This document shows, piece after piece, positions 21,801 to 37,047 of a DNA stretch of 47,721 bases. A program made the position numbers and the translations under genes. Origin of the DNA: a bacterium (GTDB lineage: Bacteria > Elusimicrobiota > Elusimicrobia > UBA1565 > UBA9628); the NCBI GenBank assembly GCA_021810245.1, contig JAJZJF010000006.1, positions 1 through 47,721 on the forward strand. The letters are read 5' to 3'. Below the pieces are notes generated by a model that was given only the letters and a program-made list of their open reading frames with translations, did no database searches and was not told the origin of the DNA. Every line of letters starts with the position of its first letter. The first letter of the stretch is position 1.

Positions 21801-24800
21801 ATTGTCATTGGCCCGAACCCAAAGGCTAAATTGCATGGAATCCACATCCGACATCGGAGGATAGGTCGTCGTCCATTGGAGGAGCCCGGTCGCCGGCTGC
21901 CAGTCATTGTATTTGGTCCCGCTGGTGTCCCAGTCGCTTGAGAAAACCCCGGTCCGGGACCCGTTCCAATAGGCCTGTAGGCTTTGGGCTTTAAGCAAAA
22001 TCTGAACGGACTGAAGCCCTGAGTTTCCCGTCGTCGCGTCGTTGGCGGTTCCGGCAATTAAAGCGAGATTTGCCAAATTAAGATAAGACGCGGTGACAGG
22101 TTCAGTCGAGGCGACCAAAGGCGCTTGATTGTCGAATCGAAACTGCGAACCCGCACCGGAGACAGAGGCGTTTTGCTCGACGTTGGTCGCTTGATCTATC
22201 GCCAAGGCCGTCGCCTGGTAAACCGAAGACGACACCGCCATTCCCGCCGGCGTCGGAGTCGACCAAACGACACTTCCCAGATCCTGAGCCGTCGTCGAAT
22301 AGACCAAGGTCCAAGCGGCGTTAAACGGCGGAGCGGTGGGAGAAGGGTTTGACAAAGAGGTGTTAAAAGCCCCCGTCGTCCAGTCCCACCAAGCGGCTCC
22401 TGTCGGGCACGCCGATCCGCTTAAACATTGAACCGCCAGCCAAACCTGGGACACCCCCGAAGGAGACGGCAAAGGGTCGGTCGCATTGCCCGAGATTGCG
22501 GCCCAGGTGTTGGTGCTCGTGTTATTGGCCGGGAAACTGACCGTCGCGGTCGGGGTCGATGAATCATACAAGAACGCTTGGGTCTGTTGGGCATTTGAGG
22601 AAGTCGGGTTTGAGACAAAATTCGTCGTATTTCCGGCATTATCCTTGGCGTAGGTAAACACCGTGTAGGTAATACCGCTTGAAAATGTATTTTGAGACTG
22701 CTGAAATCCCGCAGGGCAATAGACCCAAGCATTTCCACTTTGATAAACCTGGGTTGACCATTGAATGGCGGAATTATTGAGTGAGAAAGTCTGGGTCGCA
22801 TCATCCCACCAAACATTGTCATTAGAACCCGATGAAATCGCGATCCAGACCTGGGAAACGCCCGGAGGATTGGTCCCGGGAGAAGAGACCGTCCCATAAA
22901 CGCAGGTGGAGATTCTTGTTGATTCAAAGTTATTGGAATAGGGCGGCACCGCCGGCGGTTGATTCGGGAAAGAAATCGCGAGATTGGGGGGTTCGGTGTC
23001 ATAGGTGATGACAAATTCAGTCGGGGTTGTTTGAACGTTTCCGGAATTATCGGTCACTTCTGAGAAAATATGATAGACCGTCCCGGTTTGAAATGCATTG
23101 GTCAAGCTCGAATAAGTCCAGGTCAGGGTCGAAGTCGTAGGTCCGGTTTGAGCGGTGAAACTCGCCGCATTATAAATAGGAACCCCGGTAAAAGTCCAGG
23201 CCGACCCGTTCCAGTCCGGCCCGGTCACGGGATTAGTCGTAATGCGAACCTGAACATTTGAAATTCCGGCAAGTTGGGCCTCCGCCGTTCCGGAAATCTG
23301 AGTCAAGGAATTGACGAAGGTGTTGTTGGTCGGAACCGTCATGGAGGACACCGGCGGAACGCCGTCGACGATAAAGGCGTCAATGGGCGTAAACGCGCTT
23401 AGGTTTCCGGTGGAAGGAGAAACCTGGCCATTGGCCAAGGTGGAAGCGTCATGGGCCTGGGCCCAGGTGAAAAATTCTTGCGGCCCCACCGCCGAATAAT
23501 CTCCGGCATCGGGCGCGGATGGGGAATTCCAAGAAGTTCCATTGGCGGTGAAAGTGGACGGCGAGGCGAGCCACCCGGCCGCGCCTTGCCCCGGGCTTCC
23601 CTGCCAGTAATAACTGGTTCCGCCTTGTAAATACCACAGTTGAATGTCGATGCCGGAGGTCAAAAGCCCGGAGGCGACCCCATTGGTAATCGGGTCAACC
23701 GCCGTTCCTTGAATGCCGACCCCTCCGGTGTTGATGCCGACCCCATTGGGCTGATAGTAAAAGCTAAAAGGCTGGGTGATGACGATATTGGGCGCGGTTT
23801 TATCCACGCGGAAAGTCAAAGACGAGATGCCGACCTGGAAGCCGTTTTGGAGATTTCCCGCGTTGTCTTGCGCCCGAACCAAGATCAAATAATTTCCGTC
23901 CAAAGCCGCGGAGTTAAGCCCGGCAGAGGTAAAGCTCCAGGTCGCCTGCCCGACAGAGGATTGATAGAAGGAAGCGCTGTTCCAAGAGGGACAAATCGCG
24001 TTAAAATTTGACCCGCCGTTATAACAATATCCACTGTTTAAATACTCAAGCGAAAACTGAACCGAGCCGATGCCGGAAGGCGCGGAGTTGACGTTTCCGG
24101 GATTGGGATTGGGGTCAACGGCGGTTCCGTTTAAGGTGTTGAGCAAATTCGCGTAAACGCCGGTAATGGGTTCTTGAACCCCGGCGGTGGGCAAGGACAC
24201 GTCATAAAGGAAAGAGCGGCTGTTGACCGTCGCGATGTTTCCGGCCAAATCGGTTCCGTGCATTTGAATGGTATAAGAAAATCCGTCCTGCCACATGGCA
24301 TTTCCCAAAGCCGTCGCGGATGAAAAATTAAGCCCGTCTGAAGTCACGGCTACAATGGCCGCCGAAGTGGAATAACTCGTTAAATCAAAAGTGTCCTTGT
24401 CGACGTCCCAGTATTTCCCGTCAAAATTTCTTTGCACGGAAAAAGCGATTTGACTAATGGAACTGGGAGGAACCTCGGTCGCCGTTCCGCTTAAGGTGGT
24501 CAAGGTGTTGGTTGAAGTTCCAGGCGGGGAATCTACCGCGACCGTCGGAGCGGTGGACTCAATAATGAATTCCGCCGAGGCTAAGGTCCCGCTTTGGAGC
24601 GTCGCGTTTTGAATCGCGCAGACGGTGACGGTGTAGCTGGAATTGCCAATCCAATCGCTGGACGCCGGCCAATTATAAGTCCACCCTTGGCTGCTGCCCG
24701 AACCCGTCAAAGAACTGGAATTGACCCAATTTCCGCAACCGCCGGGATTGTTCACCGTCCATGATGATCCGGTCCAATAGTAATTATTTTTAATTTCGTT

Positions 24801-27800
24801 AACTAAAAGTTGCACGCTGGTCGCGTTGGCCGCCGCTCCGGAAAAAGTGGTTAAAAGCTGGCTCGATCCCAGGGAGCCGTCCTTCGCGTAATTGGGAATT
24901 CCGGAAGGCGGAACGACAATTGAAGAAGTCGGCGGAGGCGTCGCGAAAGTAAACTCAATGTGATCCGAATTGGCGACGGCATTTGAAACCGCGGTCTCTA
25001 AATTATTGACCGTGTCCGAGGATTGAACGATAATGTCGTAGGTCGTGTTATTTGAGAACGTATTTTGGGCGACGGGAAATATCCAGTCGTAAACTCCATT
25101 GGAATAAGAAGTCGTCGTCGCCAGTATCCAATAGGGACTGGCCGAGCTAAAAGAAGCTCCGAGAGAAGTCTGTTTGTTGGCCAAGGCGGTAATGTCGGTC
25201 TGGGAAAGGGCTTGCGTATAAATGCGAACGTCATCCAAGGTTCCCGCGAAATAGGTGCCCCAGGCGGCATCGTAACCGAATTGAGTTCCGCCGGAACCCG
25301 TCAAAGGCGAACTTTGAGATCCAATGGACGCAGCCGTCGTCGTCACCTGGGTTCCGTCCACATAGAGAGTAAATTGCGTGGCGGCAATCCCTGTTCCGCT
25401 CGGCGCGCTCCAAACTCCGATGACATTGTGCCAAACCCCGTCGTCAATTGTCTTAGTCGAAGCCGCAATGCCGATATCGGTCCCATTGCTGTCTAACTCA
25501 AAAAAGGGCAAACCCGGGCCGCCGTTTCCGCCGCCGTCGGTACCCATTCCCAAGGTCAAGCTAAGCCCCGCGCCCGATCCCCGGTCTTGAACAAGGGCCA
25601 ATTTGCCGGCGCTATCGGTGGTATTGACCCATAAAGAGATTGAATAAGCCGTCACGCTGTTTTGAACATAGGGAGTGCTGATGTCGCCGCTGGTTCCGTT
25701 GAGGTTGACCGCCGCGCTTTCAAGCCCCGGAACGCCAGAAACCCAGGTGTATCCACCATAAATAGTCCCGTTATTTCCATTGCCCGAAATATCCTTGACG
25801 GTAGTTCCAGTCCCGTCGTTAAGCGGCCACTCTCCCGCCAAGTCCACGGTCAGGGGGTTTCCGCCATAATAAGTGTTGGCCGCGCAAGTTCCGGAGCCGG
25901 AATCTTCGCACATCGTGACGAAGACCCCGCCCAAGCCCGAGTTAAACGGCTGGGGGTTATCCTGAACTGTTCCTGAAATAGTGGTGAGACTGTTCAAGGT
26001 CTGCCCATTACTCGGAACGGTAATCACGGAATTGGGGGCTTCCGAATCCCAGAAGAAGAAATGCGTGTCGGAATAGGGCGGCGTAGTTTGTTGGCTTTGA
26101 AGGATATTAGCGGGATTTTCGGTATTGCCGGCTGAATTTCCGTTTTGATCGACAGCCGCGTCAATGCCCTGGACCCTTGTGCGATAGGTGTGCCCGCTGG
26201 TTAAATTCGGCTCTAAATTAGAAGTTGGAAAGCTCCAATTTGATGGATTGGGATTATTGATCGTTAAAGTGGTCGGGTTAAAAATGGAACTTGTCACCCA
26301 AGACTTCGTCGCATCATCCCAGTAAAGACAATTCGGGCAAGTGTTTTCATCACGAATTTCGACGCCCACGGAAGACATTCCGGCGGCGTCGGCGGAGCTG
26401 ACCGCCGGGGGCCCGGGATAAGCCGGATTGTCCGTCGCGGTTCCGGTCAAATCGGGCAAATTGCTCGGACTGACATTGGAATACCAAATTTGATCGGCGG
26501 GAGACACGATGGTGGAAGTCGGGGCCTCGGTGTCATAGTTAAAAATATCCTTGAGCGTCGTTGAGGACTCGATATTTTCAACCGAGGGAGTCGAAGAAAG
26601 CGTTTCGTTTTGAACTTCGTCCTCGCTCCAGGAATAGATTTTGAACCGGTCCGCAAGACTAATCGAGGTCCAAAAACCGGCGGGAAGAGAATAGAGCCAG
26701 GTGTTGGGGCTGGCCGAAGTATTTAAATTGACCGAAGGCTGTCCAATATCCGAGCGCGTTTGAGTCCAGCCGCCGGTCGTCCACCAGGAGCCGTCCGATT
26801 GTCTTTGAACTCCCAAAAAGTTCGCGAAAATGCCGGAGTTAAACGGTTGCGGCTGGTCAAGAGCTGTTCCTGAAATGGTTCCGATCTGAACGGAATAGGC
26901 GTCATTGTTTAACGGATATTTCGCGGCCGTAATTGGGGCGGAGGAGTCATAGATAAAATTGGTCGTCGAATAAACGACTTGAACGTTGCCGGCATTGTCG
27001 ACCGCCTTGGTAATCAGTTGAAAAGAATGGCCGTTAAGAAACGGAATATTGTTGATTTCCCAACCCGCCCAAGACGGGGTCGTGGTCGTTTGAGAAATAA
27101 TCCACGGCGCGGTTTGACCGACGCCAATCGCGATAAACCCGGCCGAGGCTGCCCCGTAACAAGAGCTATTGGGCGCGGTGGAAGTGGGATTACACCAATA
27201 ATCGCCGGTAATCGTGTCTTGGAGCGTGTATTCTTCGGCGAAAATTCCGGAAACGTCCGTTGCCGCCGAAGCCGTTCCCCACAACATCGACAAAGAAGAC
27301 GCCGTTTGAGAATTGTCATCGCCAAAAGCGTTGGGGGTGGCTAAAGTCGTCGGAAAAGTGACGGCAGAAGTCGGCGGATTATTATTGAAATTAAAATAGC
27401 CGATAAAAGCCGGGGCTTGGGAAGTCGCGCTGCCATCCGAATCAGAAGCGGTGGTTCCGTCTCCGCCGTCGCAACCGGGAGAAGCTGGCGAGCCAATCGG
27501 CTCCGTGGGGTTACAGGCATACATCGCGATGCGATAGTCATGCCCGTTTTGAAAGGGAATACCGGAAATGACGTCGGCCCAAGAGCCGTTGGTGGTTCCA
27601 TAATAGAAATACATAAAGGGATCGGCGCCATTTTCGTTGGAGGGAACGGCCGAGGTCGAGATGAAGGTTTGGCTTGAGCCTTCAATTAACGAGCTTGAAC
27701 CGTTAAAAAAGTTTCCATTAGTCAAATCCTTAATCTGAATCGCGACGGTGTTATTGACCGAGAAAATCGTGTTTCCACTGATGATGTCTAAATCCGAAAT

Positions 27801-30749
27801 AGAGCCTGAAATCTGGGTTAAGGAATTAAGCCAGGTGGGACTCGCGGAGTTGGCGCTAATGACGGGAGAGATAATCGTCGCCGTGGGATTATTGACATCA
27901 TAAAAGAAGTTGATCGCGGACGCGGCCTGATAATGACCCAAGGCGTCTTGTCCTGCGGCCTGAATGCTGTACTCGGCCCCATTATTCCAAGCCGGAACTT
28001 GAATGGTAGTGGCCGAGTTAAAGGTCAAAATCCCCGGATTTTCCTCCGGAGGAGAGAAAACCATATTCGGCGATCCTCCGCCCGCGCCGTTGGTCGAAAT
28101 AAACATCGCTCCGGGAATTGCGCTCCAGGAAGACCCGGTCCAGGAAAACGAATTGGTGTCTTCGGCCAAGATCCACATCTGCGACACGCCAACCCCGGCG
28201 TCCACCGATTGAATTTGAATATCCGGCTGGGAATTGACGACAGTGCCTCCGACCGGCGTCAAAACGCTCGACACCGGCGGGGATTTATCGATCGTCAAGG
28301 TAAAGCTTGAAATGGGATAACTCCAGCCCTCATCTGCCGTTAGTCCCCGCCAAGAGATGTTATAAGAAGTTCCATCGGCTTGCTCGGTGTTGTTGTTAGT
28401 CCAACCGCTGTAATTCCACGGGGTGGCCGCGCTGGCCGGCTGCCATTCCGTTTCGGAAGCCGGAGCGGTAAAAGCCGAAACCGCCTGGAAATTGGCCCCG
28501 TTCCAGAAATAGCCGGCGTTGGTTCCGCTCAATTGCTCGATTTCGGCTTGACTCGTCAAGAGGGAGGTTTGCCCCGAAGCCGGAGAATAAGACGCCGTTC
28601 CCGCGACGCTGACGACTCCCGACGAATAGTAAATTCCCGTGGTGGGGTTATAAACGACGCCGACAGACGGCGTCGGCGAGGTCGCTGCGGCGGTTGGAAC
28701 CGTCACGGTAAAAGTCGAAGCGATGGCGCTGGAGGCTTGGCCGTCGGCGTTGACGACATTGACGCTGTAAACCCCGCCCGCAGCATTGGTCGTGACATGG
28801 ATATTGGCCGTGAACTGCCCCGTGCCCACATAAGTCACCGAGTCGACCAATATTCCAACTCCGGAGAACTGCAAGTTGGCGACCTTAGAAAGCCCCCATT
28901 TTTCAAAATTAGACCCAACGGCCACGAGTTGCCGTGTCGGGCGACCGCAGAGATCATTGTCGCAGATGACCGAGTCTGAAACGTTGGGCTCGACCCCGCC
29001 GGAGTTATTTGATCCCGAAATATAAAGACTCGTCAGTGTTGGCGGCGGTATCGTAATCGCTTTTGAAATTGTCGCGCTGCGCCCATCCGGATTTGAGACT
29101 TCGAGATCGTAGGCTCCGCCTGGCGCCGTCACTTGATTGATCACGATTGAAGCGCGAACCTGATTGGCGCTGACAAAGGTGGTTGATGTAACCGTGATAT
29201 CCACTTGCGATGCCCCGGAAACCAACAGGGAAACAGCAGGATTAAATGTCCCTAGTTGAAAAAACCCGGAACCATTGATGATTAGATCATAGACGTTGGT
29301 GCTATACGGCGCGGTTGTGGGAGAAGAGCTAATAGATGTCACTGAGGGCGGCGACCGCTGTGAGTCAATAATCTCGTCAAAAGTGACGCCTAAAGGTCCG
29401 TTCCATTCGACCGGGATCGGGTAAGGGCCGTCTATGTGCGATGGAATGATCGGATAACTGTCGCCGCCCGTCGGCTCATGCCAGTCATGGACCACATTCC
29501 AAGCCCCGCCCGCCTCGGCGTTGGTGACGGTGGAAGAAGCGTAGTTAATCGAGCCGTATGAGGAAATATAAACAGCGTAAAGAGCGTCCACGCTGCCGCC
29601 AACGCCCGGATCCGCCTTGACGTAAACAAGAGAGGGCGCAGCGCAAGCAGGCGGAGCGCCGCTTGCGTCGTTGGCGCAAAGGTCAATTGCATATCCCTGG
29701 CCCGTAGTCGTTCCTTTAATCCACGACTCATACCCATTGCGGTAAGTATAGTCCACGCCGCCGGTCACGGGATCAATGAAAGCGGCATGAGCCAAATAAG
29801 TTCCAAAATGTGCGACCAAAGACTGCCCGCTGTAAAGACCCTTAGTTCCGAGATTAACGCTGGGATCAAACTCGTTTCGGCCGCCAGGAGAAGCGCCAGT
29901 ATTAGTCCAGACTTGAACGCGCAGATTGCCGCTGTAATTGGCCTGGTCATTTTGATAGAGCAACACATCGTCGCTTCCCCCAGACGCCGTATCATTGACC
30001 GCGACAATGGATCCCAAATTTTTTCCGAGCGTTCCTTCGTTGTTTGCTGATTGCGCGTCCACGGCCACGAGGGCTCCTCCGGAAAACGTGCCATTGGAAT
30101 TCATTCCAATTTCACCCAACTGTGACGTCTGCACGTTAGTGACAGCCCTCTTAGCATCACACACGGCATCAACGGTTCCACCGTCATCGACCGTAATACC
30201 CACGCCGTTTCCCGCCCAACAACTGCCAGTATTGGAGCCTCCGACTCTGCCAACCGGCGTTTTAAACTCCAGCGTTCCCCAACTAATCGTCCCATTCCCG
30301 TTAAGAGAGCCTCTTTTAAGGAAAATATTATTATTCGTTGCACCATTTATATATGCGTTAGGATCATTGGCGACTACAAAAACAAAGCTGGAGGATTGCT
30401 GATAGTAAACGCTCCCATACATCTCATTGGAGTCCGTGGCTCCGGAGGGATCAGCGGCAAGAGCTTCGCTTGTTGAGATCGCAACCCCTTCGGATAACCA
30501 GGAAGCGCCATTATAGGCCTGATAGCAAAATCCTTGGCCGCACTCGAAAAATGTCCAAATGAGGCCATGTCCCTCATCCACGAAGTTCTTGCGGCTGCCC
30601 GACCAAGAAGTATCAAGCGCGTCCGAGGCTGGAATTGATTGTTCCGTAGCCCGCGCGGGGCGCGGAAAAAAGGCAAAAAGGCCGCAAAAGCCCAGCGCCC
30701 AAAGCGCCAAGCTCATCCGCCTTAAAGCCTTCTTTCGACCGCTAGTCAT
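1..30749 (-). CDS. Giant secreted Ig-like repeat protein (C-terminus beyond left edge)
   Basis: One frame stays open from an ATG at 30749 to the left edge: 10,249 complete codons with no stop, so the C-terminus is missing. The start follows a GGAAGG ribosome-binding site 4-5 nt upstream. Visible order by residue: signal peptide 1-34, probable sialidase-like beta-propeller about 45-455, two IPT/TIG-like domains about 466-680, then about 70 Ig-like repeats about 690-9950. A LamG-like jellyroll lies at about 1633-1860, and invasin-like modules begin after about 9950. Typical repeats contain NSLxxIsGTAxD, YWNGxxW, W-S-Y and a closing RAxDxAGNVE followed by FxYDxxxP. No transmembrane segment is visible in the parts I translated. 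By analogy with giant bacterial adhesins I infer an exported cell-surface or attachment protein; substrate and secretion route are not visible. No frameshift was found. Confidence 0.92.
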   Translation of the reverse strand, partial: MTSGRKKALRRMSLALWALGFCGLFAFFPRPARATEQSIPASDALDTSWSGSRKNFVDEGHGLIWTFFECGQGFCYQAYNGASWLSEGVAISTSEALAADPSGATDSNEMYGSVYYQQSSSFVFVVANDPNAYINGATNNNIFLKRGSLNGNGTISWGTLEFKTPVGRVGGSNTGSCWAGNGVGITVDDGGTVDAVCDAKRAVTNVQTSQLGEIGMNSNGTFSGGALVAVDAQSANNEGTLGKNLGSIVAVNDTASGGSDDVLLYQNDQANYSGNLRVQVWTNTGASPGGRNEFDPSVNLGTKGLYSGQSLVAHFGTYLAHAAFIDPVTGGVDYTYRNGYESWIKGTTTGQGYAIDLCANDASGAPPACAAPSLVYVKADPGVGGSVDALYAVYISSYGSINYASSTVTNAEAGGAWNVVHDWHEPTGGDSYPIIPSHIDGPYPIPVEWNGPLGVTFDEIIDSQRSPPSVTSISSSPTTAPYSTNVYDLIINGSGFFQLGTFNPAVSLLVSGASQVDITVTSTTFVSANQVRASIVINQVTAPGGAYDLEVSNPDGRSATISKAITIPPPTLTSLYISGSNNSGGVEPNVSDSVICDNDLCGRPTRQLVAVGSNFEKWGLSKVANLQFSGVGILVDSVTYVGTGQFTANIHVTTNAAGGVYSVNVVNADGQASSAIASTFTVTVPTAAATSPTPSVGVVYNPTTGIYYSSGVVSVAGTASYSPASGQTSLLTSQAEIEQLSGTNAGYFWNGANFQAVSAFTAPASETEWQPASAATPWNYSGWTNNNTEQADGTSYNISWRGLTADEGWSYPISSFTLTIDKSPPVSSVLTPVGGTVVNSQPDIQIQSVDAGVGVSQMWILAEDTNSFSWTGSSWSAIPGAMFISTNGAGGGSPNMVFSPPEENPGILTFNSATTIQVPAWNNGAEYSIQAAGQDALGHYQAASAINFFYDVNNPTATIISPVISANSASPTWLNSLTQISGSISDLDIISGNTIFSVNNTVAIQIKDLTNGNFFNGSSSLIEGSSQTFISTSAVPSNENGADPFMYFYYGTTNGSWADVISGIPFQNGHDYRIAMYACNPTEPIGSPASPGCDGGDGTTASDSDGSATSQAPAFIGYFNFNNNPPTSAVTFPTTLATPNAFGDDNSQTASSLSMLWGTASAATDVSGIFAEEYTLQDTITGDYWCNPTSTAPNSSCYGAASAGFIAIGVGQTAPWIISQTTTTPSWAGWEINNIPFLNGHSFQLITKAVDNAGNVQVVYSTTNFIYDSSAPITAAKYPLNNDAYSVQIGTISGTALDQPQPFNSGIFANFLGVQRQSDGSWWTTGGWTQTRSDIGQPSVNLNTSASPNTWLYSLPAGFWTSISLADRFKIYSWSEDEVQNETLSSTPSVENIESSTTLKDIFNYDTEAPTSTIVSPADQIWYSNVSPSNLPDLTGTATDNPAYPGPPAVSSADAAGMSSVGVEIRDENTCPNCLYWDDATKSWVTSSIFNPTTLTINNPNPSNWSFPTSNLEPNLTSGHTYRTRVQGIDAAVDQNGNSAGNTENPANILQSQQTTPPYSDTHFFFWDSEAPNSVITVPSNGQTLNSLTTISGTVQDNPQPFNSGLGGVFVTMCEDSGSGTCAANTYYGGNPLTVDLAGEWPLNDGTGTTVKDISGNGNNGTIYGGYTWVSGVPGLESAAVNLNGTSGDISTPYVQNSVTAYSISLWVNTTDSAGKLALVQDRGSGAGLSLTLGMGTDGGGNGGPGLPFFELDSNGTDIGIAASTKTIDDGVWHNVIGVWSAPSGTGIAATQFTLYVDGTQVTTTAASIGSQSSPLTGSGGTQFGYDAAWGTYFAGTLDDVRIYTQALSQTDITALANKQTSLGASFSSASPYWILATTTSYSNGVYDWIFPVAQNTFSNNTTYDIIVQSSDTVNNLETAVSNAVANSDHIEFTFATPPPTSSIVVPPSGIPNYAKDGSLGSSQLLTTFSGAAANATSVQLLVNEIKNNYYWTGSSWTVNNPGGCGNWVNSSSLTGSGSSQGWTYNWPASSDWIGNSSYTVTVCAIQNATLQSGTLASAEFIIESTAPTVAVDSPPGTSTNTLTTLSGTATEVPPSSISQIAFSVQRNFDGKYWDVDKDTFDLTSYSTSAAIVAVTSDGLNFSSATALGNAMWQDGFSYTIQMHGTDLAGNIATVNSRSFLYDVSLPTAGVQEPITGVYANLLNTLNGTAVDPNPNPGNVNSAPSGIGSVQFSLEYLNSGYCYNGGSNFNAICPSWNSASFYQSSVGQATWSFTSAGLNSAALDGNYLILVRAQDNAGNLQNGFQVGISSLTFRVDKTAPNIVITQPFSFYYQPNGVGINTGGVGIQGTAVDPITNGVASGLLTSGIDIQLWYLQGGTSYYWQGSPGQGAAGWLASPSTFTANGTSWNSPSAPDAGDYSAVGPQEFFTWAQAHDASTLANGQVSPSTGNLSAFTPIDAFIVDGVPPVSSMTVPTNNTFVNSLTQISGTAEAQLAGISNVQVRITTNPVTGPDWNGSAWTFTGVPIYNAASFTAQTGPTTSTLTWTYSSLTNAFQTGTVYHIFSEVTDNSGNVQTTPTEFVITYDTEPPNLAISFPNQPPAVPPYSNNFESTRISTCVYGTVSSPGTNPPGVSQVWIAISSGSNDNVWWDDATQTFSLNNSAIQWSTQVYQSGNAWVYCPAGFQQSQNTFSSGITYTVFTYAKDNAGNTTNFVSNPTSSNAQQTQAFLYDSSTPTATVSFPANNTSTNTWAAISGNATDPLPSPSGVSQVWLAVQCLSGSACPTGAAWWDWTTGAFNTSLSNPSPTAPPFNAAWTLVYSTTAQDLGSVVWSTPTPAGMAVSSSVYQATALAIDQATNVEQNASVSGAGSQFRFDNQAPLVASTEPVTASYLNLANLALIAGTANDATTGNSGLQSVQILLKAQSLQAYWNGSRTGVFSSDWDTSGTKYNDWQPATGLLQWTTTYPPMSDVDSMQFSLWVRANDNAGNVGTMPSSSVGLPSDTQLDNNQNANGSAVLEFIYDNTPPISRATYPPAYFNAVPATISGTATDPGLYQPSGVNDVEILLARSDGDYWNMVSQSWQSSNPGFTNVSRVGLTNWTFSNFSGAFADGYQYAVNPQATDNATNVETAYSTHDFIVDLSTPVSAPVWPPNNGFANNVSSITGTADDFFCDLNPTLCPSPGRDFQSGISTIEVAIQDLTQGTTWWNGTSFVTSATPIWSTATFIGASSGTWVYNLPGGALTNEHKFAASAYATDNAGNIEEVNLTTNTFIFDTTPPVSIATSPAGSITQVAAITGTAYAVSPDQLQVVGVALQETSGCNGGGTPPHSNDYWNGSSWQTGQIYVDSGVIGGFVALSSTYAWAMNTSHIAFDNNANYQVTSRALDKAGNLETAHFTYDTTFCLGVPPSNPTITQPVVGGQYQTLASAVNTFSGGGSNLDSSNPNGIEIQLQRLTSPTSYWYDPSELWSNDSSTYTPTSPINATSWNYGLVTPGAPYQIQNASYSLTVTGYNSANLPGTPAQVTFVIDNVKPQSFIATPVANYCPVSGTNACFNTMPFISGTSIDPGNVAPPSVTQSLVNVRVKNLYNNDYWNSQAFVGSVQEFNPGVFSFSGSPPTYSWSTSTLAGLGLQDGITYEILAHAADLAGNDTLTESNMANFTFLYDTSPPTAYLSAPEANQVYLGVTPITGTAFDPAGANGNHLKSDLAKVEISIKSISGNACWSDSNNQFNVACPSFTIVSGTASWSYNNPNLNGALTNDEQYAVTVQATDNAGNVQSVYTVPISSLTFAFDNVPPDVGIVLPQNNAAYSCATGSPNCLTGASAINGTASSPDAALYPGNNALQDAQVVIWFMADPTNYALPGGTSYYYTGVVGSNGTKFSSNTTEGASWQAANSTATWDFLFTGTDWINEEQYFVKARATDNALNAAGVITGNTTSVFTNGQNLMSFIIQNTPPVSQLITPPPGSYIQSFTSISGTANVGLAGGDTYYLFISTQDSSGNNYYWTGASWGPANSFFELPVQVTGSTGTVDWTYPGSPALPGQSAPTTNQPNGTVFSIAFQAKDNAGNLETPTTSQVILDKTGPDVAISTPMASAPDYGSTRLLSVVNGTSFESVAPVTQVLVQLNDISDSPSLMWDGSAWGVYTSTYLIVSGTEPWSFNSPTWINNKEYVASVKAYDAAGNLSPTGQTNQQVTFIYDVNAPTSTIAVPSLPFYPSGQPAVLNGEAFDWVTYPSTQTMSGLNNVQVSITQNNVNGCSLEYWNGTAWAPTGGPYWRVVSTNTANPATWNYPPSNPAGDTIPVWANGCNYTVQTRATDNSQNVEALSHQPIKSFTYDNQPPTFAILSPAYSYVQGVSSINGTANDPISTMNGGEAAVYMAVQRQDGKFWDGTGFNISCTGSGLGTCSNGSGGTTDPFLSAALTSVFTSSANWALSGSTMTNLSAYFNTTATSLQFSLYASVIDNAGNVTRSTTTVPVSGTADFGFTVDHFPPVSITTYPAAAYLQGNVVPVAGTAEDDLNGAGVASVGIEALQVNSAGTTNYWNFLGSWQTTNPGYTSVSLIGGVPGGTLASWIASTNSLPSSAFEDGYLYHIVSQAEDLSNPPNVQVNLTTTSFIVDDDTPTISMMTPIPPQIYISTSNFVFSSGTVADPLVGGDIPSGVANVFLTVYDISSNTWWNSSGWQTASSTQSATLYQSSWTYANFPTDWTQGYYPSDGDRYRVNVWAVDRAGNNGSIAFSTSVVLTMDVTPPLAQVTSPAGGSIASSLDTILGTAQDFLVNNSSSGVRLVALSIFDKGGGTGDPNQGKYWNQASGVWSSNQVWNPAVFTAPNWTFNSANLNSTLTVYSQYVLTSSATDIAGNSQTVISSGVVEYEPPPAVTAITYPVSLNYYSSLLTIQGTANANTESNNIQIERLDTAQCWTGSAWGTCPATRSISPSSPTWSYPSGSDVIPAWVNNTSYTITETGFNTAGIAESPNQQLEFFIDQSSPISRVNFPANASYVNAVPTLSGTAQDAIINGIASGIKNPGGINITLQRTDNNEYWNQATSTWVASITPFTDTATYDAASTTWSFVASSPTLAWQDGLSYKLSVNSEDNAQPTANVEAISSLNTVNFTYDTTPPGVLVQYPNAARESNLATLYGTASVPSFGALQNVQVAIYSQANAAWANPTNSLNFSQTNESLAFFDAAVTGGPTNFNWTVSSGIPWVAGDTYTVVARALDEAGNYSVPYSTSPNFVYDNLPPITVVNLPANGSFINSLPVISGTAADQPSVNPSVLSETDVQIKRLDTGQFWSGSGWVSAATLQSTLAQIEIWQDIYPSTWNVTPADMPTLANSGLVSGTSYYITARSIDSASPANTEAFGNAFSSTFTFSTMTPTSFVAIPNQPFYNNLTFLSGSGSAAFPNVALSTIALEVEDTTSPSCYDASNNLFDLSCPAWFAAQGSTNAWTFTLPSNPWTQAHQYIVYSSATDVAGNVQALVSSATFAYDIEAPTAAVIVAHYINASVASIGGTAFDSPAGVSTLQIAVSSNSGAAGSWLSGKNGTYTASGPVYLATSTFVFGNPDTWSEATANLNLISGDTYYIQIFEEDNAGNSRTQDFLNAFVYDTATPSIAITQPDKLYYNNPISITGTSGETPPGYVTAVQIRISTASQDWTGTGWTSSTPYWLTVSGSLNSWIYTSTPPWVSGQTYTIYAQATDVAGNVSPVINYSFTYDVSNPVSSIVFPSANRTGIEGNNLLSVQQSTGSAVDPSGNPLTLVQVRIEQVSPTPAYFWDPSNGTFDILPANEDTAWFGAATSDNWASWSVSSAAVFSAMNSGGQYQFSSRALDAAGNVSTTYSTMTTIYDIYPPETGVTDPANGISTNSWVALVGTAIDFTNVPGPNNINLGTVQRVQVQIERLDTKQYWNTGSWVSAYTLDSANGQVNVYPSSWTISQSNLPSGADLPAGTSFYITSSGFDNAFPAPGNQEAFNSPRGSTFTYSNTPPTTSISAPNKPFYNSLATLSGASQAVFSYIPVSTVAIEIEDSGTGQYYDLATSTFDLSSPNWFAAGGTTTSWNYSFASQPWEQAHTYVLSSTATDVAGNIETAISSYSFTYAVEEPTITMNSSQYINATVTNLASGVGVDSPAGISGTNLQIAVSSAAGAGGWWNGTSYTGSAPSYYPASFVPNPGTSISWSFSTSTILLVNSQIYLIQSQATNQAGTVRVQNLGNVTYDDQPPVAGITLPVNGDYYDSLGTISGTSSDNVGVSTIALSVEDLTVGGCYNPVSGFGAACPGYFPAQGTVGAWSYSGIPWSNGHNYLVVSKATDLAGNVQDVFTVGVSSNSFEFDTTGPTTKITVPATLNSDQNASLTQIQGTAAGANGVPLQTVWVRFFNNGLGDYWDNATQGWVSQTTLPPDQAWFPSSATVSNWTQWHATFTFATGTQYSVEAMAEDQAGNYDLITSTVNFLYDAVAPESFVVAPPGGFVNSLSQINGTATDSQALGLGGSGVASISLAVEDLKNGKWWDGGSGAFDGISPQAYNYLASWWPAGSSWTYNSSNSGGTLFANLTSATSYYITAAATDNAGNVESFFTVGGSTFGFDNVAPTAGITTPQTQYVNSFDFLVGTATDDFSGVYNVQTAMYDETGGYWFNGTNFTGASIDWVNVSTTNTGVLSATWNYSFATPTSGKNYIVLARAIDNAGNTQSVFNVPVSSETVLFDNTPPTAFIQSPQNGATYSSLSSVSGTAADPAGPGGLASGVGTVKLQIENLTASPAQYWNGTSWVSASSTVTASGTNSWSYALPALTTQNQYQIVAFAIDNAGNFQTPYSTYTIIYDTVPPVSYVTVPGEGLGYNATDIFTAITGTAQSPTPGAPIAQLQLSIEYDKGAGAWWNPTASPVQPGCPQGDFNSSTEIMMSTGTAPFDPWSFNFSSNCFISGSSYTIHTVATDAALPTGNVENPGAYRHFSVNTQPPTSYIQQPPNGGAYQNLTSIYGTATDLVAVSTVEVCIKSFGADQVEDSVGCSLGGDDEIWNGTQFQSLISTWVIAVGTANWSYATSGIWGLNGVFRVLSKAIDVSGNIETPGPGNVFDIDNQPPVAAFTVPSNGSYYNKLNDLYGTATDCFGTGGTCQPADSGIYPNGSVQIAVSSGPNFNTWWNGTAYASGLAWNTVSFTGSSSGTWNWGVGTPSLTSGVQYLALSRGTDNAGNVQSVFSVGVSSNIFGFDDVPPLSAITSPATETSTNSVSSISGTASDDYSGVHQMNLRISEVLSDGNTYYWTGTVTTPNFSWSSMTVTNLSPTYTGGTGPGFSSGTWTYTDSSLAGAWTSGNLYTLFAYGVDNAGNVNVAGSTNVFMYDTQTVPPVIIKPVAGAFYGPNKPLPDISGTATDIPVSPLTGVAEVQVRLSSGPLSSQTYWNGSSWVSSANTWNTATGTATWSYPEPSGVNGWQNAVEYQANARLYDLAGNLSQGATAAFVWDSAPPDDQLLIPSTSSAYVSGPLSTLSGTAIDPGPPGLYSGLQAVQVSIEINPGSGGNFWNGTSFAVAAQTWLNASGVTAGAQSANWSFTGSTPTWVNGTQYEVCSQALDEVGNVSLQSCDTFVFDSSAPTTDITLPPNNNPQNSLTQISGTAASAEANVPLQAVWVRFFDQNITEYWDESAHSFDNISASNAWFISSTTLSGSSAWTTWFATFTFSNATIYSVNAMAEDAAGNFDLVTSTRTFLYDTVPPVSNVLSPANGSYINSLSQISGTSYDPGAPYDSGVSLVQVAIRDNQTGQWWGGSSFNSSSLFSFTLASTAPWSYSGLTTAQLTSGASYYITASATDNAGNVEGFYSAGGSTITFNDVSPTSFISIPNQGQLNSLAQTSGSAAAAFSDVQLSTVSLAVEDAGTGQYYDLATSTFDLNSPNWFAAEGSTNSWFYNFSPQPWENNHNYVIYSSATDLAGNVQTSISSAAFLFDIEGPTVTLLTSAYVNASIADASGTITDSPGFVTSLSIALSSANGNGGWWNGATFTSNTPVYSSTSSFTVGSPDLWQWNKAISPTNYLVNSVEYLVRAFGEDSANNQTIANIGSFTFDNEAPIAGIVVPSSGAFYNSLPTISGTATDNVGIATVTISIEDLTTGVCYSTGTSSFAGACPDYFPVGGSCQNVVGNPANCSWSYSNIAWVNEHQYLVVSQGTDLAQNVQNTFAVGISSNEFVFDTTLPTIGLTNPPGAGYQPNYRTNSLTAISGTASVASPDQLSLVNVRVQQLTDTAIQYYWDPGTRAFDIAPTSPDLAWTTMTVSGYSASWSTSPAISWTSGVEYSIQARAKDQAGNFSIPYDTFTVVYDNTPPLTAVAVPSNNSFINNLAAISGTMVDEPLAPLSSGTVSQVNIEITRLTDGYYWNGTAWQIGSIALESSLGQVSVYVSTWTLSSLLPTLNSGTSYYLTTQGIDNANPSGNIESYAASLPSTVFFDTTPPNSLIVIPSQAQLNSLPTVSGTALAAFPAVVGLSTVSLAVEDAGTGQYYDLATSTFDLNSPNWFAAEGSTNSWFYNFSPQPWENNHNYVIYSSATDLAGNVQTSISSAAFLFDIEGPTVTLLTSAYVNASIADASGTITDSPGFVTSLSIALSSANGNGGWWNGATFTSNSPVYSSTSSFTVGSPDLWQWNKAISPTNYLVNSVEYLVRAFGEDSANNQTIANIGSFTFDNEAPIAGIITPSSGAFYNSLATISGTATDNVGIATVTISIEDLTTGVCYSTGTGSFGGACPDYFPVGGNCQNVVGSPASCSWSYSNIAWVNEHQYLVLSKAEDLASNVQNVFAVGVSSNEFVFDTTLPLVGLSTPPASTPEPPGNFRMSSVSPISGTASVAAPDQLAQVQVCVQQLTGGLGDFWNPAAGAFDQTSCDWMTATTANSWVNWSTATAIPWISGDQYAIIARSEDAAGNFSVPYSTYNIVFDNTPPITAVVLPASGTYINAGGIAQIYGTMEDQTQTGADTGTVTTVDIEINNISNDTCWNGTSFQAPPCPVLGGNAIVPVYQSSWSLNAAYVPPVADLISGDSYYLTTSGTDNAYPAGNVEAYSSSINSQVVVDTIPPTGVVTSPTNGAVIASLTTITGTAQDVGPNPSGVSNASQIAVAIGQVSPGNGCWNGTITGGTFTLTGCPIFYPISNSAIAGTYSAGFWNMGAPPLTTKYTYRVWVQVTDNAGNVEPVSSASSMTFTYDTTAPGIAITAPQGLPSVGGNLNAAATLAGTASDQFGISYASVAFQEADTLMYYSGVTSTFSSTTPIWFNAPVTGTAPNFSWISSTWPPIAPTTGRKYNVYAEAANLSGVLTAPVSITIEWDTTPPLSAPTFPANVSYVNNISSITGTAEDPGATPSGVAGVKTQIESVSQNSCWTGSAFTGTCGPTGVWLSGAVLGVPVGGVYPWTDTSNLPPSNNSGGFANGSQYIVTSQAFDLATNTQTVTTQNSFYFDASSPTAVVQFPLQDKYYNSVPDITGTAQDNAPGDFNVLFPRVRIYDISLAEAWDSLDNKFDLPETSTSAWNVANSSSSTGAPFNWAFNTSVINWQPRDWATGSGYRIDVWVLDDAGNYTVTSTTFGFTNVPPSSLVTFPSPNGIWFDSMTIINGTALDNYAPITNVSLEMWYSTNGVTNYWETVLPHWTTTPGFVPLNVTGAEGSAIPWSYTGVDFNDPTSNNFSWHGGGGNLPPDGMTFNLITQAVDAAGNVQTLYSTATFNFDNVPPTSGLQNPPPNSAQNSIGELIGTAADDASGVKSDVISIYQNETANYFNGTGFNSASQMWITPSLYISSWTYLNGSLSFVNGDHYIFYSSATDVATNVQTAVSASEVLFDTVPPTSNVISPSNGATDAQDEIISGGASDPGFTSGIAGTGSGVYPGASPTWQKGAIQVAIFLDTAPYAETSGPVAYPGWDSTGYWWNGSTWVAAGSVTTPPVWVNANYGSDGLGDWTYTGLVCPSPNTNNVPCWQDGQQYYTWSRSIDNAGNVENVINNGPLFFIAAPAVGFNVTISSNPSVAGSNGSEISMTVEAIDANGNRASGYQGNVSFYIDGVPGGPEVMGDNGNYAHDLAYGLPSAYTFTSGVGGDNGIHTFTDVLIRKAGNRQLRVEQSNNSSIFGVLPITVQPASPYQVQVIADYPSGQTPAPGTSNGVSGSPSSFTDGTPVPFLVQVTDQFWNLTVSSSVTVNLLSSDPNDYCENSSAPLVFTGSTTVNHIFVTAGNQTLAASGAGVYPNSDNPSTPVPIVGQPASRLLAVLPGETLNQGKVCAQPFGKTGTPSPMEAGLQFGSTVYG
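4441..5388. repeat. Recent intragenic direct repeat, copy 1 (within giant gene)
   Basis: This stretch is nearly identical to 6277-7224, with a constant offset of 1836 bp, an exact multiple of 3 (612 codons). Between 4861 and 5388 I count only about 8 mismatches against the partner. Identity stops abruptly at 5388. It covers about two and a half Ig-like units. Confidence 0.9.
6277..7224. repeat. Recent intragenic direct repeat, copy 2 (within giant gene)
   Basis: Partner of 4441-5388 at an offset of 1836 bp. Homology to the left of each copy continues at a lower level, so the duplicated block was at least one five-repeat module, later diverged or partly converted. Confidence 0.9.
25170..25853 (-). 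other. LamG-like (concanavalin-type jellyroll) domain inside the giant protein
   Basis: About 228 residues with the standard LamG_3 signature. It starts AGEWPLNDGTG and DISGNGNNGTIYGG, followed by YSISLWVNTTD, DGVWHNVIGVW, FTLYVDGTQV and FAGTLDDVRIYTQALSQTDI. Family knowledge: these jellyrolls often bind glycans or extracellular matrix-type ligands. It is the only such domain seen among about 70 Ig-like repeats and lies near the N-terminal end of the array. Confidence 0.9.
28705..29354 (-). other. Two IPT/TIG-like Ig domains of the giant protein
   Basis: The first domain (about 29047-29354) starts PPSVTSISSSPTTAPYSTNV, has LIINGSGFF and ends GGAYDLEVSNPDGRSA. The second (about 28705-29040) starts PPTLTSLYISGSNNSGG, has LVAVGSNFEKWG and ends GGVYSVNVVNADGQAS. 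The pattern 'P.ltsi.p..g...g..v.i.GsgF ... y.v.V.NpdG' is the usual IPT/TIG signature. They form the linker between the propeller and the long repeat array. Confidence 0.7.
29385..30617 (-). other. N-terminal beta-propeller-like domain of the giant protein
   Basis: Residues about 45-455 contain recurring short strands. Examples are NFVDEGHGLIWTFFECGQGF, which resembles a BNR/sialidase-type blade, then Gly/Asn-rich turns and blocks such as SLVYVKADPGVGGSVDALYA. I read this as a sialidase-like beta-propeller. It differs from the later repeats: YWNG and AGNV motifs are absent. Fold assignment is by pattern only; a structure prediction would settle it. Confidence 0.45.
30648..30749 (-). other. 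Sec signal peptide of the giant protein
   Basis: Residues 1-34 begin MTSGRKKALRR (basic n-region), continue with a hydrophobic core (LALWALGFCGLFAFF) and end PRPARA before TEQS, a good signal peptidase I site. A near copy of the first 20 residues is encoded at 31309-31367. Confidence 0.85.
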
Positions 30750-30770: not shown

Positions 30771-30789
30771 ATAGGGACAGTCCCCATTT
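30771..30789. repeat. REP-like palindrome, copy 1
   Basis: ATAGGGACAGTCCCCATTT. The core GGGAC-A-GTCCC is palindromic around one base and could fold as a short hairpin. It lies between the giant gene and hicB, in the untranslated leader of the giant gene. The family has four copies in the window. Confidence 0.85.
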
Positions 30790-30796
30790 CCCAACC

Positions 30797-30825
30797 TTGA
30801 CTTTTTAGAAGTCTCATGTTACACT
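30797..30825 (+). promoter_or_regulatory. hicBA promoter with overlapping inverted repeat
   Basis: TTGACT (30797-30802), a 17-bp spacer and TACACT (30820-30825) make a strong sigma70-type promoter. The transcript start would fall about 7 nt later, at or next to the hicB ATG (30832), so the mRNA is probably leaderless or nearly so. An inverted repeat GACTT-TTTAG-AAGTC (30799-30813) overlaps the -35 box and spacer and is a candidate operator. Confidence 0.7.
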
Positions 30826-30831
30826 AACCTC

Positions 30832-31053
30832 ATGGTTATCCCTAAGTCGAAAATCAGCCTGCGCCGAGACGAAGACGGCGTGTGGATCGCCAAATCCAGA
30901 TTCTTGCCGGGTTGCCACGCCCACGGCTCCACGGAAGCCGAAGCCTGTTTAAATTTCGAGGAAGCGGCCGAAGCCCATTTGGAAGCTTTGCTGGAGAATG
31001 GCAAGCCCATCCCCGCGCCCTTTCGCGATAAATTTGTTTTGCGCGCCGCGTGA
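30832..31053 (+). CDS. hicB: HicB-family antitoxin
   Basis: A 73-residue protein of the HicB/UPF0150 type. It has the core SLRRDEDGVWIAKSRFLPGC, then HGSTEAEACLNFEEAAEAHL, the usual strand-helix pattern of the HicB RNase H-like fold. Known role of the family: it binds and neutralises the HicA mRNA interferase. The size fits minimal HicB proteins with no separate C-terminal DNA-binding domain, so autoregulation through the operator-like repeat upstream may need the complex. It comes before hicA, the reverse of the E. coli order. Its stop overlaps the start of hicA. The pair runs opposite to the genes on both sides and is bracketed by repeats, which suggests acquisition. Confidence 0.85.
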   Translation: MVIPKSKISLRRDEDGVWIAKSRFLPGCHAHGSTEAEACLNFEEAAEAHLEALLENGKPIPAPFRDKFVLRAA

Positions 31054-31289
31054 TGGGCGGCAAATACCCCGCTCTGGGCTCTCGGCAACTGGACCGGCGG
31101 TTGCGCGAATTGGGATGCGTCTTTTTGCGCCAGAAAGGGAGTCATCGCCATTACTCCAACCCCTTTAAACCAGCGCGCCTCATCACCTACCCGGACCATG
31201 GCGGGGACATCCCTCGCGGCATTATTGCCGACATCATTGAAGACCTGGGGCTGAGCAAGGATCAGTTCTATAGCCCTGATTTTCCCTAA
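31053..31289 (+). CDS. hicA: HicA-family mRNA interferase toxin
   Basis: A 78-residue HicA/YcfA-like protein. SRQLDRRLRELGCVFLRQKG leads to the GSHRHY motif, whose first His is the expected catalytic residue of this double-stranded-RNA-binding-like fold. It ends GIIADIIEDLGLSKDQF, the usual C-terminal helix. Known role: ribosome-independent mRNA cleavage, blocked by HicB. I chose the ATG at 31053, which overlaps the hicB stop as TGATG; an in-frame GTG at 31050 would add one residue. All expected motifs are intact, so it is probably functional. Confidence 0.87.
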   Translation: MGGKYPALGSRQLDRRLRELGCVFLRQKGSHRHYSNPFKPARLITYPDHGGDIPRGIIADIIEDLGLSKDQFYSPDFP

Positions 31290-31308
31290 GGTAAAAAATC
31301 CCCGCGCG

Positions 31309-31367
31309 CCCAGCGCCCAAAGCGCCAAGCCTCTCCGCCTTAAAGCCTTCTTTCGACCGCTAGTCAT
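31309..31367 (-). pseudogene. Orphan 5' fragment of the giant gene
   Basis: An ATG at 31367 with a GGAAGG ribosome-binding site encodes MTSGRKKALRRRGLALWALG, nearly the same first 20 residues as the giant protein. After that the frame runs antisense through hicA and hicB until a stop at 30819, with no similarity to the giant protein. It is a remnant of the gene start left upstream of the hicBA insertion. It lies 40 nt after the HEAT gene stop, which suggests that the giant gene once followed that gene directly. Confidence 0.8.
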
Positions 31368-31382
31368 GGTTTCCTTCCGTAC
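31309..31382. repeat. Direct repeat copy B: duplicated giant-gene start
   Basis: Second copy of the 30691-30764 block, 618 bp away in the same orientation. The two copies bracket hicBA, and each is followed on its right by a REP-like palindrome. Confidence 0.9.
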
Positions 31383-31385
31383 GAA

Positions 31386-31406
31386 AAATGGGGACTGTCC
31401 CTATTT
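31386..31406. repeat. REP-like palindrome, copy 2
   Basis: The core GGGACTGTCCC is flanked by AAATG and TATTT, the inverse orientation of copy 1. It abuts the TGA stop of the HEAT gene (31407-31409). With copy 1 it brackets hicBA as an inverted pair. Confidence 0.85.
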
Positions 31407-32054
31407 TCATGGCGCAAGCCCCCGGACCCTGGGGTTGGGGTCATTGGCCGCCTGCTTTAAAGCGCTTAAAGCCGCTCCGCTACCGATTTCCTTCAGCGAC
31501 TGCGCCGCCTGAAGGCGAACATTGGCGTCTTTGTCCTGGGCCAAGGCCTGAGAGAGAGCCGAAACCGAAGAACTTCCCCCCAATTGTCCCAGCCAAAAAG
31601 CGCTGGTCATTCGCGCGCCAGGATCGTGATCCGTGGCCAAAATCGGAGACAAATCCGTGACTGCCCGCGGATTTTTGGACTCTCCCAAGGCGACAATGGC
31701 GGCCTCTCGAACCTGAACGCTGGGATCTTTGAGCGCGGTCTCTAAAAATGGGATATTGCCAGGATTGGCATGGTTTTCAGCTCGCACAATCCAAGCCCGG
31801 ATAGAAGCCCGCGGTTCTTGAGCGAAGGCCGCCTTTAAGGCGCCAGCCGCCCGCCTATTGGGACCTTGAAAAACGGATTTAACCGCCGCAAGCCTCGACA
31901 TCGAGGATTTCCCCACACTAAAATCAATCGCCCAGTCGCGCATATGCGCGGCCTGTCCCTTGGGCGCCACGTCCTGGGCATCAACCCTCAAAACGCCTCG
32001 ACACCCTATCACGCCCAAAACCAGGATTATTAATCCCGCCGTTTTGTTTTTCAT
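31407..32054 (-). CDS. HEAT-repeat lipoprotein
   Basis: 215 residues. The N-terminus MKNKTAGLIILVLGVIGC is a lipoprotein signal with Cys18 in a VIGC lipobox, so it is probably lipid-anchored outside the inner membrane. From about residue 90 there are HEAT/PBS-lyase-type repeats: NPGNIPFLETALKDPSVQVR, EAAIVALGESKNPRAV, MTSAFWLGQLGGSSSVSAL, LQAAQSLKEIGSGAALSALK. Such repeats mediate protein-protein contacts. The start has an AAGGAG site 4 nt upstream. It precedes the duplicated giant-gene start by 40 nt on the same strand, so a role in exporting or anchoring the giant protein is possible but unproven. Confidence 0.8.
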   Translation of the reverse strand: MKNKTAGLIILVLGVIGCRGVLRVDAQDVAPKGQAAHMRDWAIDFSVGKSSMSRLAAVKSVFQGPNRRAAGALKAAFAQEPRASIRAWIVRAENHANPGNIPFLETALKDPSVQVREAAIVALGESKNPRAVTDLSPILATDHDPGARMTSAFWLGQLGGSSSVSALSQALAQDKDANVRLQAAQSLKEIGSGAALSALKQAANDPNPRVRGLAP

Positions 32055-32178: not shown

Positions 32179-32697
32179 TCAACAGCGGAGAACAGAAAAG
32201 TCAAGGTAGGATACTTCCCGATGGAAGGAAATCAGACAGGAAATCAGAAATACGCCTGAAAAAATCGGAAGCCACCCCAAGAGAAGGCGCCGCGCCAACA
32301 AGGACCTCTTTTTGGAAACGGGAAGGGCCCAAACGCGCGCGCCGGCCTTAAACAGAGAGGCGCCCCAAGAGAAAATCGGGAGCTTCCAAACACATTCAAT
32401 AAAGAAACTAATCGCCCGCGCCTTGGGAAGGGAAGAGAAAAAAGAAGTCCGGGCGCGGCCTCTTGCCTCTGAAACCTTCAGCTCTTTTTGGATGAGAGAA
32501 GGGGAAACCGGCCGCCCCAAGGCATCGCGAACGTCTAGGTGAAGGGCGTTAGCGACCGCGTAACTGACGCTCACCCCTTGGGCTTTAAGACCGATAGGGG
32601 TTTCGGCAAAAGCCCGGGAAAAACACAATAAAAAGGCAGAAGCGACCGCTAAAACGCCCGCGATCCGCCCCCGCATCAAAAACGATTTATAATTCAT
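32179..32697 (-). CDS. Riboswitch-led small exported protein, possibly degenerate
   Basis: 172 residues from an ATG at 32697; a TTG one codon upstream is also possible. Residues 1-31 form a clear signal peptide (hydrophobic GVLAVASAFLLCFSRAFA before ETPIG). Residues 32-75 (GLKAQGVSVSYAVANALHLD) look like a normal secreted protein. From about residue 80 the sequence turns Arg/Phe/Leu-rich with a hydrophobic stretch (LLLGWLPIFSGVFLISCLIS), unlike a natural domain, so a frameshift or truncation is likely. It directly follows a c-di-GMP-I riboswitch and a strong promoter. I do not recognise a family. Confidence 0.45.
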   Translation of the reverse strand: MNYKSFLMRGRIAGVLAVASAFLLCFSRAFAETPIGLKAQGVSVSYAVANALHLDVRDALGRPVSPSLIQKELKVSEARGRARTSFFSSLPKARAISFFIECVWKLPIFSWGASLFKAGARVWALPVSKKRSLLARRLLLGWLPIFSGVFLISCLISFHREVSYLDFSVLRC

Positions 32698-32700
32698 CAA

Positions 32701-32792
32701 TCAGATACCTTCGGCAGCCGGGCGATCCAACAAGGACCCCGCGCTTTGCGCCCCTTCCTTTCGAAAGGTTTGCCTTTTCGGTCTCACTGACC
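32701..32792 (-). promoter_or_regulatory. Cyclic di-GMP-I (GEMM) riboswitch
   Basis: On the minus strand the conserved GEMM parts appear in order: GGCAAACC (32767-32774), a perfect 6-bp stem closed by a GAAA tetraloop (32753-32768), GGGGCGCAAAGC (32743-32754), a P1b-like helix, and GGCTGCCG (32712-32719) in place of the usual GGGUUACCG. Closing pairs TCAG...ACC / GGT...CTGA bring the ends together. The order matches the Vibrio Vc2 aptamer. The ribosome-binding site of the next gene (GAAGG, 32708-32712) lies in the 3' strand of the closing helix. Ligand binding could therefore block translation; this is inference. Confidence 0.85.
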
Positions 32793-32806
32793 GCGATACA
32801 AGAGTT

Positions 32807-32834
32807 AGTATAACAGACATTTGTTTCCTGTCAA
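32807..32834 (-). promoter_or_regulatory. Sigma70 promoter for the riboswitch transcript
   Basis: TTGACA (32829-32834) and TATACT (32807-32812) are separated by 16 bp, near consensus. The predicted start, around 32800, is just before the riboswitch aptamer. The -35 box lies only 4 bp from the thiN stop codon. Confidence 0.85.
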
Positions 32835-36664: not shown

Positions 36665-37038
36665 TTGGGGGCGGCCGGGAATCGCTTCCGGGATTTAATT
36701 TCCGGGAGAGGAACTTCCGGACTCCACAAAGCGCGGCGCTTGCCGAAAGGCAAGACGGCGAGAAGGCGACTTTTCGCCGATGGACAGCGCCACAGAAACA
36801 AACCGCCTTCGAGGTTATGGCCTTGAGGGCAAGGGTGAAAAGGTGGGGTAAGAGCCCACCGCTTGTCTCGCGAGAGACAAGGCTAGGCAAACCCCGCCGG
36901 GAGTAAGGCAATAAACGGCGATAAGCGCCGCTTGCGCATTTTCGCGAAAGCGAGAGTCGCCCGGTAGCCGCTGAGAAAAATGATTCCACCCAGTCCGCAA
37001 GGACCGGAGACAGAATCCGGGGTATCGGCCGCCTCCCA
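36665..37038 (+). ncRNA. rnpB: RNase P RNA, class A
   Basis: About 374 nt; the catalytic RNA that trims tRNA 5' ends. The ends pair as P1: GGGGGCGGCCG (36667-36677) with CGGCCGCCTCC (37026-37036). Conserved blocks in order: GAGAGGAACTTCCGGACTCC (P3/P4 side), GGTGAAAAGGTGGGGTAAG (P10-P11 core, near 36832), CCCCGCCGGGAGTAAGGC (near 36893) and ACAGAATCCGGGGTAT (3' P4 strand, near 37010). All key elements of the bacterial class A RNA are present. Short ORFs across it on either strand are spurious. Confidence 0.97.
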
Positions 37039-37047
37039 ACTATTTTC

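Follow-up and report, generated by a model that had tools for sequence, protein, structure and literature searches.

A probable cyclic-dinucleotide riboswitch at the head of a giant surface protein locus in Elusimicrobiota

Elusimicrobiota are among the phyla most prone to encode huge proteins, and these proteins are poorly characterised (PMC11573180). How might the production of such a protein be controlled? The question is raised by a 47,721-nt stretch of DNA (the window) from an Elusimicrobiota bacterium, the relatives of which are named Elusimicrobia or Elusimicrobiota and are mostly groundwater metagenome assemblies. A gene for a giant surface protein occupies one end of the window, and a c-di-GMP-I (GEMM) riboswitch had been predicted from the letters alone at the head of the strand that leads to it. 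The analysis reported here supports this original prediction in its main points. The element probably works as a riboswitch for a cyclic dinucleotide, most likely c-di-GMP, and controls a transcript carrying a small exported protein (ORF1), a HEAT-repeat protein and, ancestrally, the giant protein. The features of the locus are collected in Table 1. Another structured RNA, a bacterial RNase P class A RNA, lies elsewhere in the window (36667-37040, plus strand, 212 bits).

Table 1. Features of the riboswitch locus and of the genes that follow it in the window.
Feature	Coordinates	Strand	Basis
Sigma-70-type promoter, TTGACA-16-TATACT, TG before the -10 element	32807..32834	-	11/12 matches
5' hairpin CGGTC-AGTGA-GACCG, candidate anti-P1 element	32779..32793	-	identical in 5/5 genus members
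c-di-GMP-I-GGC riboswitch aptamer	32709..32783	-	RF03167, RF01051, covariation in 43 relatives
Shine-Dalgarno-like GAAGG overlapping the P1 3' strand	32708..32712	-	sequence
ORF1, 172-aa exported protein, undescribed family	32179..32697	-	no Pfam match; family alignment
HEAT-repeat protein, lipobox-like signal sequence	31407..32054	-	PF13646 E 1e-23; same place in orthologous loci
Insert: hicB and hicA (+ strand) between 19-bp inverted repeats, with a copy of the start of the giant gene	30771..31404		between HEAT and giant genes
Gene for the giant surface protein (partial, 10,249 aa or more)	3..30749	-	open frame; cut by contig end

The clear GEMM aptamer of the original prediction passes the gathering scores of two Rfam covariance models. 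Positions 32783-32709 (minus strand) were identified as a c-di-GMP-I-GGC aptamer (RF03167) with 61.1 bits and an E-value of 4.1e-12, which exceeds the gathering score of 59 by 2 bits only. The canonical c-di-GMP-I model (RF01051), with which a check had been proposed, finds the same aptamer with 58.8 bits, where the cut-off is 35. The GGC variant is thus the best-fitting family by a small margin, its name and ligand assignment resting on Rfam. The aptamer sits in a 5' leader, with the promoter (32834-32807) before it and the ATG at 32697 after it. The promoter had been called near-consensus, and this holds: TTGACA (32834-32829) and TATACT (32812-32807) match at 11 of 12 positions and are 16 nt apart. 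All four genus orthologues share it, and similar promoters are found in other families; on its other side lies a thiamine pyrophosphokinase-like gene (33503-32838, named by reading of its translation). A ribosome-binding site inside the closing helix had also been proposed. It was confirmed as an overlap, since the Rfam model assigns G32712 and G32709 of GAAGG (32712-32708) to P1. GAAGG is followed by 10 nt and by the ATG (32697-32695), and the motif and its spacing to CTGATTGATG are kept in all five genus members. In the four other genus genomes the promoter, the 5' hairpin CGGTCAGTGAGACCG, the aptamer and GAAGG...CTGATTGATG are all in place.

How would such a leader act? In the window's genus, translational control would be the most likely mechanism. 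The transcript would start about 7 nt after TATACT and would code for ORF1 and the HEAT-repeat lipoprotein; ancestrally it would also have carried the giant surface protein, which would be of the type IX secretion (T9SS) type. The 3' arm of the 5' hairpin doubles as the 5' strand of P1, and because both use the same nucleotides the hairpin excludes P1, which suggests an anti-P1 role for it. Without ligand, CGGTC-AGTGA-GACCG could hold the P1 5' strand. With ligand, this strand (GACCG, 32783-32779) would pair with the ...CCGAAGG... segment that carries the Shine-Dalgarno sequence of ORF1. Such a choice between two partners for GACCG, one of which contains the Shine-Dalgarno sequence, is how translational switches are classically built.

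For the direction of the ORF1 switch we lean weakly towards OFF. The Shine-Dalgarno sequence of the genus overlaps P1, and this overlap, together with the conserved and mutually exclusive 5' hairpin, fits ligand-dependent masking. That ligand binding would turn the genes on rather than off has a chance only a little short of even. Attachment is usually promoted by c-di-GMP, which would favour an ON switch at a surface protein locus. The direction is left unsettled by folding calculations: without ligand, forcing P1 costs about 4-13 kcal/mol relative to the free minimum, and the accessibility of GAAGG varies among orthologues, with no single consistent switch or direction. In the GEMM-I class, a dynamic P1 and competition for P1 have been documented, and related aptamers act both as ON and as OFF switches (PMC9262584).

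Outside the genus the leader has a further element. A 22-bp hairpin with the invariant loop CGGGAYAGAGGGG and a U-tract lies between the GGC aptamer and ORF1 in most of the other genera. Of 57 relatives, 28 carry this hairpin, nearly all of them as a single copy (L046:1465-1539, L108:1711-1785, L154:1146-1220 and 26 other loci), and 10 of its pairs covary. Genomes that lack the aptamer and the giant gene can also have it, by itself and preceded by a similar promoter. Four of its loci matched no Rfam family up to an E-value of 1, and the CGGGAYAGAGGGG-loop hairpin is a candidate for a new small RNA or attenuator. Because a long conserved hairpin and a U-tract stand between aptamer and ORF1, transcription-level control is suggested outside the genus, and control by transcription termination would fit this arrangement.

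Which genes does the switch precede? Two exported proteins had been predicted downstream, and the reading of their translations agrees: ORF1 has a signal peptide and the motif DVRDxxGRPVS, and the HEAT protein has the lipobox-like sequence LGVIGC. The C-terminal cysteine of the ORF1 family (VLRC) is nearly invariant. The idea that ORF1 is a frameshifted remnant was rejected, as it is full-length in all genus members and its family is order-wide. The gene order of the genus (several names being assigned by reading translations) is cysS, a tRNA/rRNA methyltransferase-like gene, a CDF-type transporter, a thiN-like gene and the aptamer, followed by ORF1, the HEAT protein, variable small inserts and the giant gene. 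The order of aptamer, ORF1, HEAT protein and giant protein recurs in other genera and families, which supports the proposal that the giant gene lies on a strand headed by this switch. Conservation upstream of homologous loci, proposed as a further check, was found in whole-genome searches of 57 related genomes. All 29 ORF1 homologues lie 12-376 nt downstream of a same-strand aptamer, and all 19 giant N-terminal domains lie 0.8-4.5 kb downstream of one, where the chance of an upstream aptamer is about 2e-4 (ORF1) and 2e-3 (giant domain) per locus; part of these full counts arises by construction, because the search seeds (15 ORF1 rows and 7 giant rows) came from aptamer loci. No ORF1 or giant locus without the aptamer was found in these searches. 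A separate scan of GTDB contigs returned 11 giant loci. Ten of them had enough upstream sequence, and in each of these an aptamer core lies 1.6-1.8 kb before the giant gene. When five of these loci were checked against Rfam, four matched RF03167 at 50-53 bits, which is below the gathering score of 59, and one matched RF01051 above its cut-off.

The step from the HEAT gene to the giant gene is less uniform. A direct layout had been proposed as the original one, and outside the genus the HEAT and giant frames indeed overlap or lie at most 7 nt apart in seven of the eight loci measured. In the window, 612 nt separate the HEAT stop from the giant open reading frame, which starts with the ATG at 30749 (minus strand), and the distance in genus relatives is 1.5-2.7 kb. 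The insert in the window carries hicBA (30832-31289, with matches to PF15919 and PF07927) and a 96-bp copy (86%) of the start of the giant gene. Other kinds and numbers of small inserts occur at the same place in genus relatives, including identical duplicates in one of them (G004). Because the relatives differ in the number and kind of their inserts, the place before the giant gene looks like a cassette-like insertion site. Since the 0.6-kb hicBA insert separates the HEAT gene from the giant gene, we infer co-transcription in the window genome, by read-through into the giant gene, and the insert may weaken the coupling of the switch to it. A rival reading is that a real riboswitch controls only ORF1 and the HEAT protein here, and that the giant gene, split off from the operon by the hicBA insert, is expressed from signals of its own. 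We regard this as possible but on the doubtful side. The gaps within the genus agree with it, as do the opposite strand of hicBA and its inverted repeats; on the other side, no convincing minus-strand promoter was found between the HEAT and giant genes, terminator-like sites there are not above chance, and all five genus members have the same gene order.

What kind of protein stands at the end of this order? A complete orthologue in G004 has 14,077 aa and is 91% identical to the window copy over about the first 8,950 aa. Other orthologues have 14,133 aa (G015) and 11,262 aa (G030). Past the end of the giant gene in G004 (L097, L114-L116), about 42 nt away and convergent, lies a gene for a PAS-GGDEF protein with an intact GGDEF motif. 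The middle of the giant protein consists of Ig-like repeats, for which Big_13 scores below its cut-off. The N-terminal domain of a relative's protein was modelled with low confidence (pLDDT 62, pTM 0.70). In a Foldseek comparison this model resembles Photorhabdus beta-propeller lectins (E 3e-6, TM about 0.4), which suggests a lectin-like beta-propeller N-terminus, as a lead only. The C-terminus (NYPNPF ... GGYIARI ... RKIGVIH) resembles a T9SS type A sorting domain and the C-terminus of PorU. The scores for it come from orthologues, as the window copy ends before its C-terminus: two complete orthologues reach 18.0 and 19.1 bits against TIGR04183 (cut-off 23), one of two C-termini reaches 27.7 bits against PF13860 (cut-off 27), and the PorU C-terminal match has E-values of 1e-5 to 3e-5. 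Another protein in the window's genome, of 2,896 aa, also has a T9SS-like end. The label "adhesin" is a reading of this architecture, that is, of the lectin-like propeller, the Ig-like repeats and the T9SS-like C-terminal domain of the relatives.

The ligand of the window aptamer would most likely be c-di-GMP. A cyclic dinucleotide signal is plausible because the genome encodes two GGDEF proteins, both with GGEEF motifs. These proteins count for c-di-GMP; cGAMP is also produced by some GGDEF enzymes. It is unlikely that cGAMP or another cyclic dinucleotide takes the place of c-di-GMP here, as the canonical c-di-GMP-I model matches strongly and the family is named as a c-di-GMP variant. The class can nevertheless include cGAMP sensors, and the position equivalent to G20 of Vc2 acts as a selectivity factor and is no hard filter (PMC9262584).

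Control genomes and covariation support the aptamer as a real RNA element. RF03167 matches were found in 43 of 57 relatives and in 114 of 235 genomes of the class, and 14 control genomes gave none. Among 43 alignable related aptamers, 10 of 17 pairs have two-sided changes. In this alignment 98.6% of cells are paired, against 83.0% in the shuffled control, and 122 cells have two-sided changes against 38, while slid structures leave only 34-51% paired. Chance is excluded for the window aptamer by the lack of matches in the control genomes and by this covariation. A chance match or a decayed riboswitch without function, for which a score barely above the RF03167 gathering score might speak, is thus extremely improbable and is ruled out by synteny, with sequence, promoter, spacing and position kept in all genus members, and by the clade-wide covariation.

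The same aptamers precede other genes. Among the first genes after 78 surveyed aptamers, clustering showed the PorV/UPF0164 type to be the commonest target (32). Further clusters are formed by the ORF1 family, SprA-like proteins (7) and CsgG-like proteins (5), with various large exported proteins besides. The PorV family assignment rests on NF033709, which is matched at 90.3 bits against a cut-off of 90 in the genus relative G004. PorV-linked aptamers of the genus (L102-L105) have an extra stem of about 50 nt within the P2 region and score 44-46 bits with RF03167; this locus is absent from the window's own assembly. The CsgG-like targets, a third kind of outer-membrane export gene, are found at L040, L045, L069, L071 and L073. 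In the window's genome a second such aptamer (C134:10306-10379) lies upstream of a gene for a 1,917-aa SprA-like protein. The SprA-like protein matches TIGR04189 at 94 bits (cut-off 200, E 4e-27) and is a homologue, not an equivalog; its sequence gave no match to solved structures. SprA was rejected as a general target of the switch: SprA-like genes are present in 55 of 57 genomes, and only about eight loci, in genera g1 and g9, have the aptamer. Searches of the window's genome for GldM and peptidase C25, run without a positive control, gave no match. Because the aptamer at SprA is limited to these two genera and GldM and C25 are unmatched, "T9SS-like" is used as a working label and not as a claim of membership. 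Under this label, the wider regulon of the GGC aptamers looks like type IX-type secretion, and the simplest reading would be a regulon in which a cyclic dinucleotide governs T9SS-like secretion together with its giant cargo. In its full form, this reading holds that the Elusimicrobiota GGC regulon jointly controls T9SS-like export (PorV-like proteins widely, SprA-like proteins in two genera) and the giant lectin-like cargo operon, with the CGGGAYAGAGGGG-loop hairpin RNA in the control element of most of the clade. We regard the case for it as evenly balanced.

Part of this picture is already known, namely the aptamer family and riboswitch control of surface genes by c-di-GMP. The aptamers described here share sequence, the P2 and P3 helices and overall architecture with RF03167 and GEMM-I (RF01051); they differ in their targets, which in Elusimicrobiota are the giant surface protein operon and PorV- and SprA-like proteins. 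GEMM-I switches at surface or motility genes include Vc2 of Vibrio cholerae (translational), Cd1 of Clostridioides difficile (OFF) and the pilM switch of Geobacter metallireducens, which responds to cGAMP and is ON (PMC9262584). With these the Elusimicrobiota element shares a cyclic-dinucleotide aptamer before surface or motility genes and P1 as the switching helix (PMC9262584), whereas the last protein of the operon here has 10,000-14,000 aa, and aptamers of the same class also stand before T9SS-like export genes. The SprB/SprA gliding system of Flavobacterium (type IX) is similar in its giant repetitive surface protein with a T9SS-like C-terminal domain, and an SprA-like translocon and a PorV-family protein occur within the clade. 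It differs in that here the scores of SprA and of the C-terminal domain fall under curated cut-offs, and GldM and C25 have no match. We know of no riboswitch control of an SprB/SprA-type system in Bacteroidota. Giant repeat adhesins of the LapA type are likewise tied to c-di-GMP, but their control acts after translation, through LapD and LapG, and here it would act on the mRNA.

No description of the giant operon, the ORF1 family or the T9SS-like link in Elusimicrobiota was found in the freely accessible literature that was searched. A riboswitch at the head of a giant-protein operon offers a first handle on how such proteins might be controlled. The conservation of the switch on the giant operon and on secretion-type genes makes this regulation testable in vitro without culturing. 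The switch predicts when the giant protein would be produced and suggests the route by which it may be exported.
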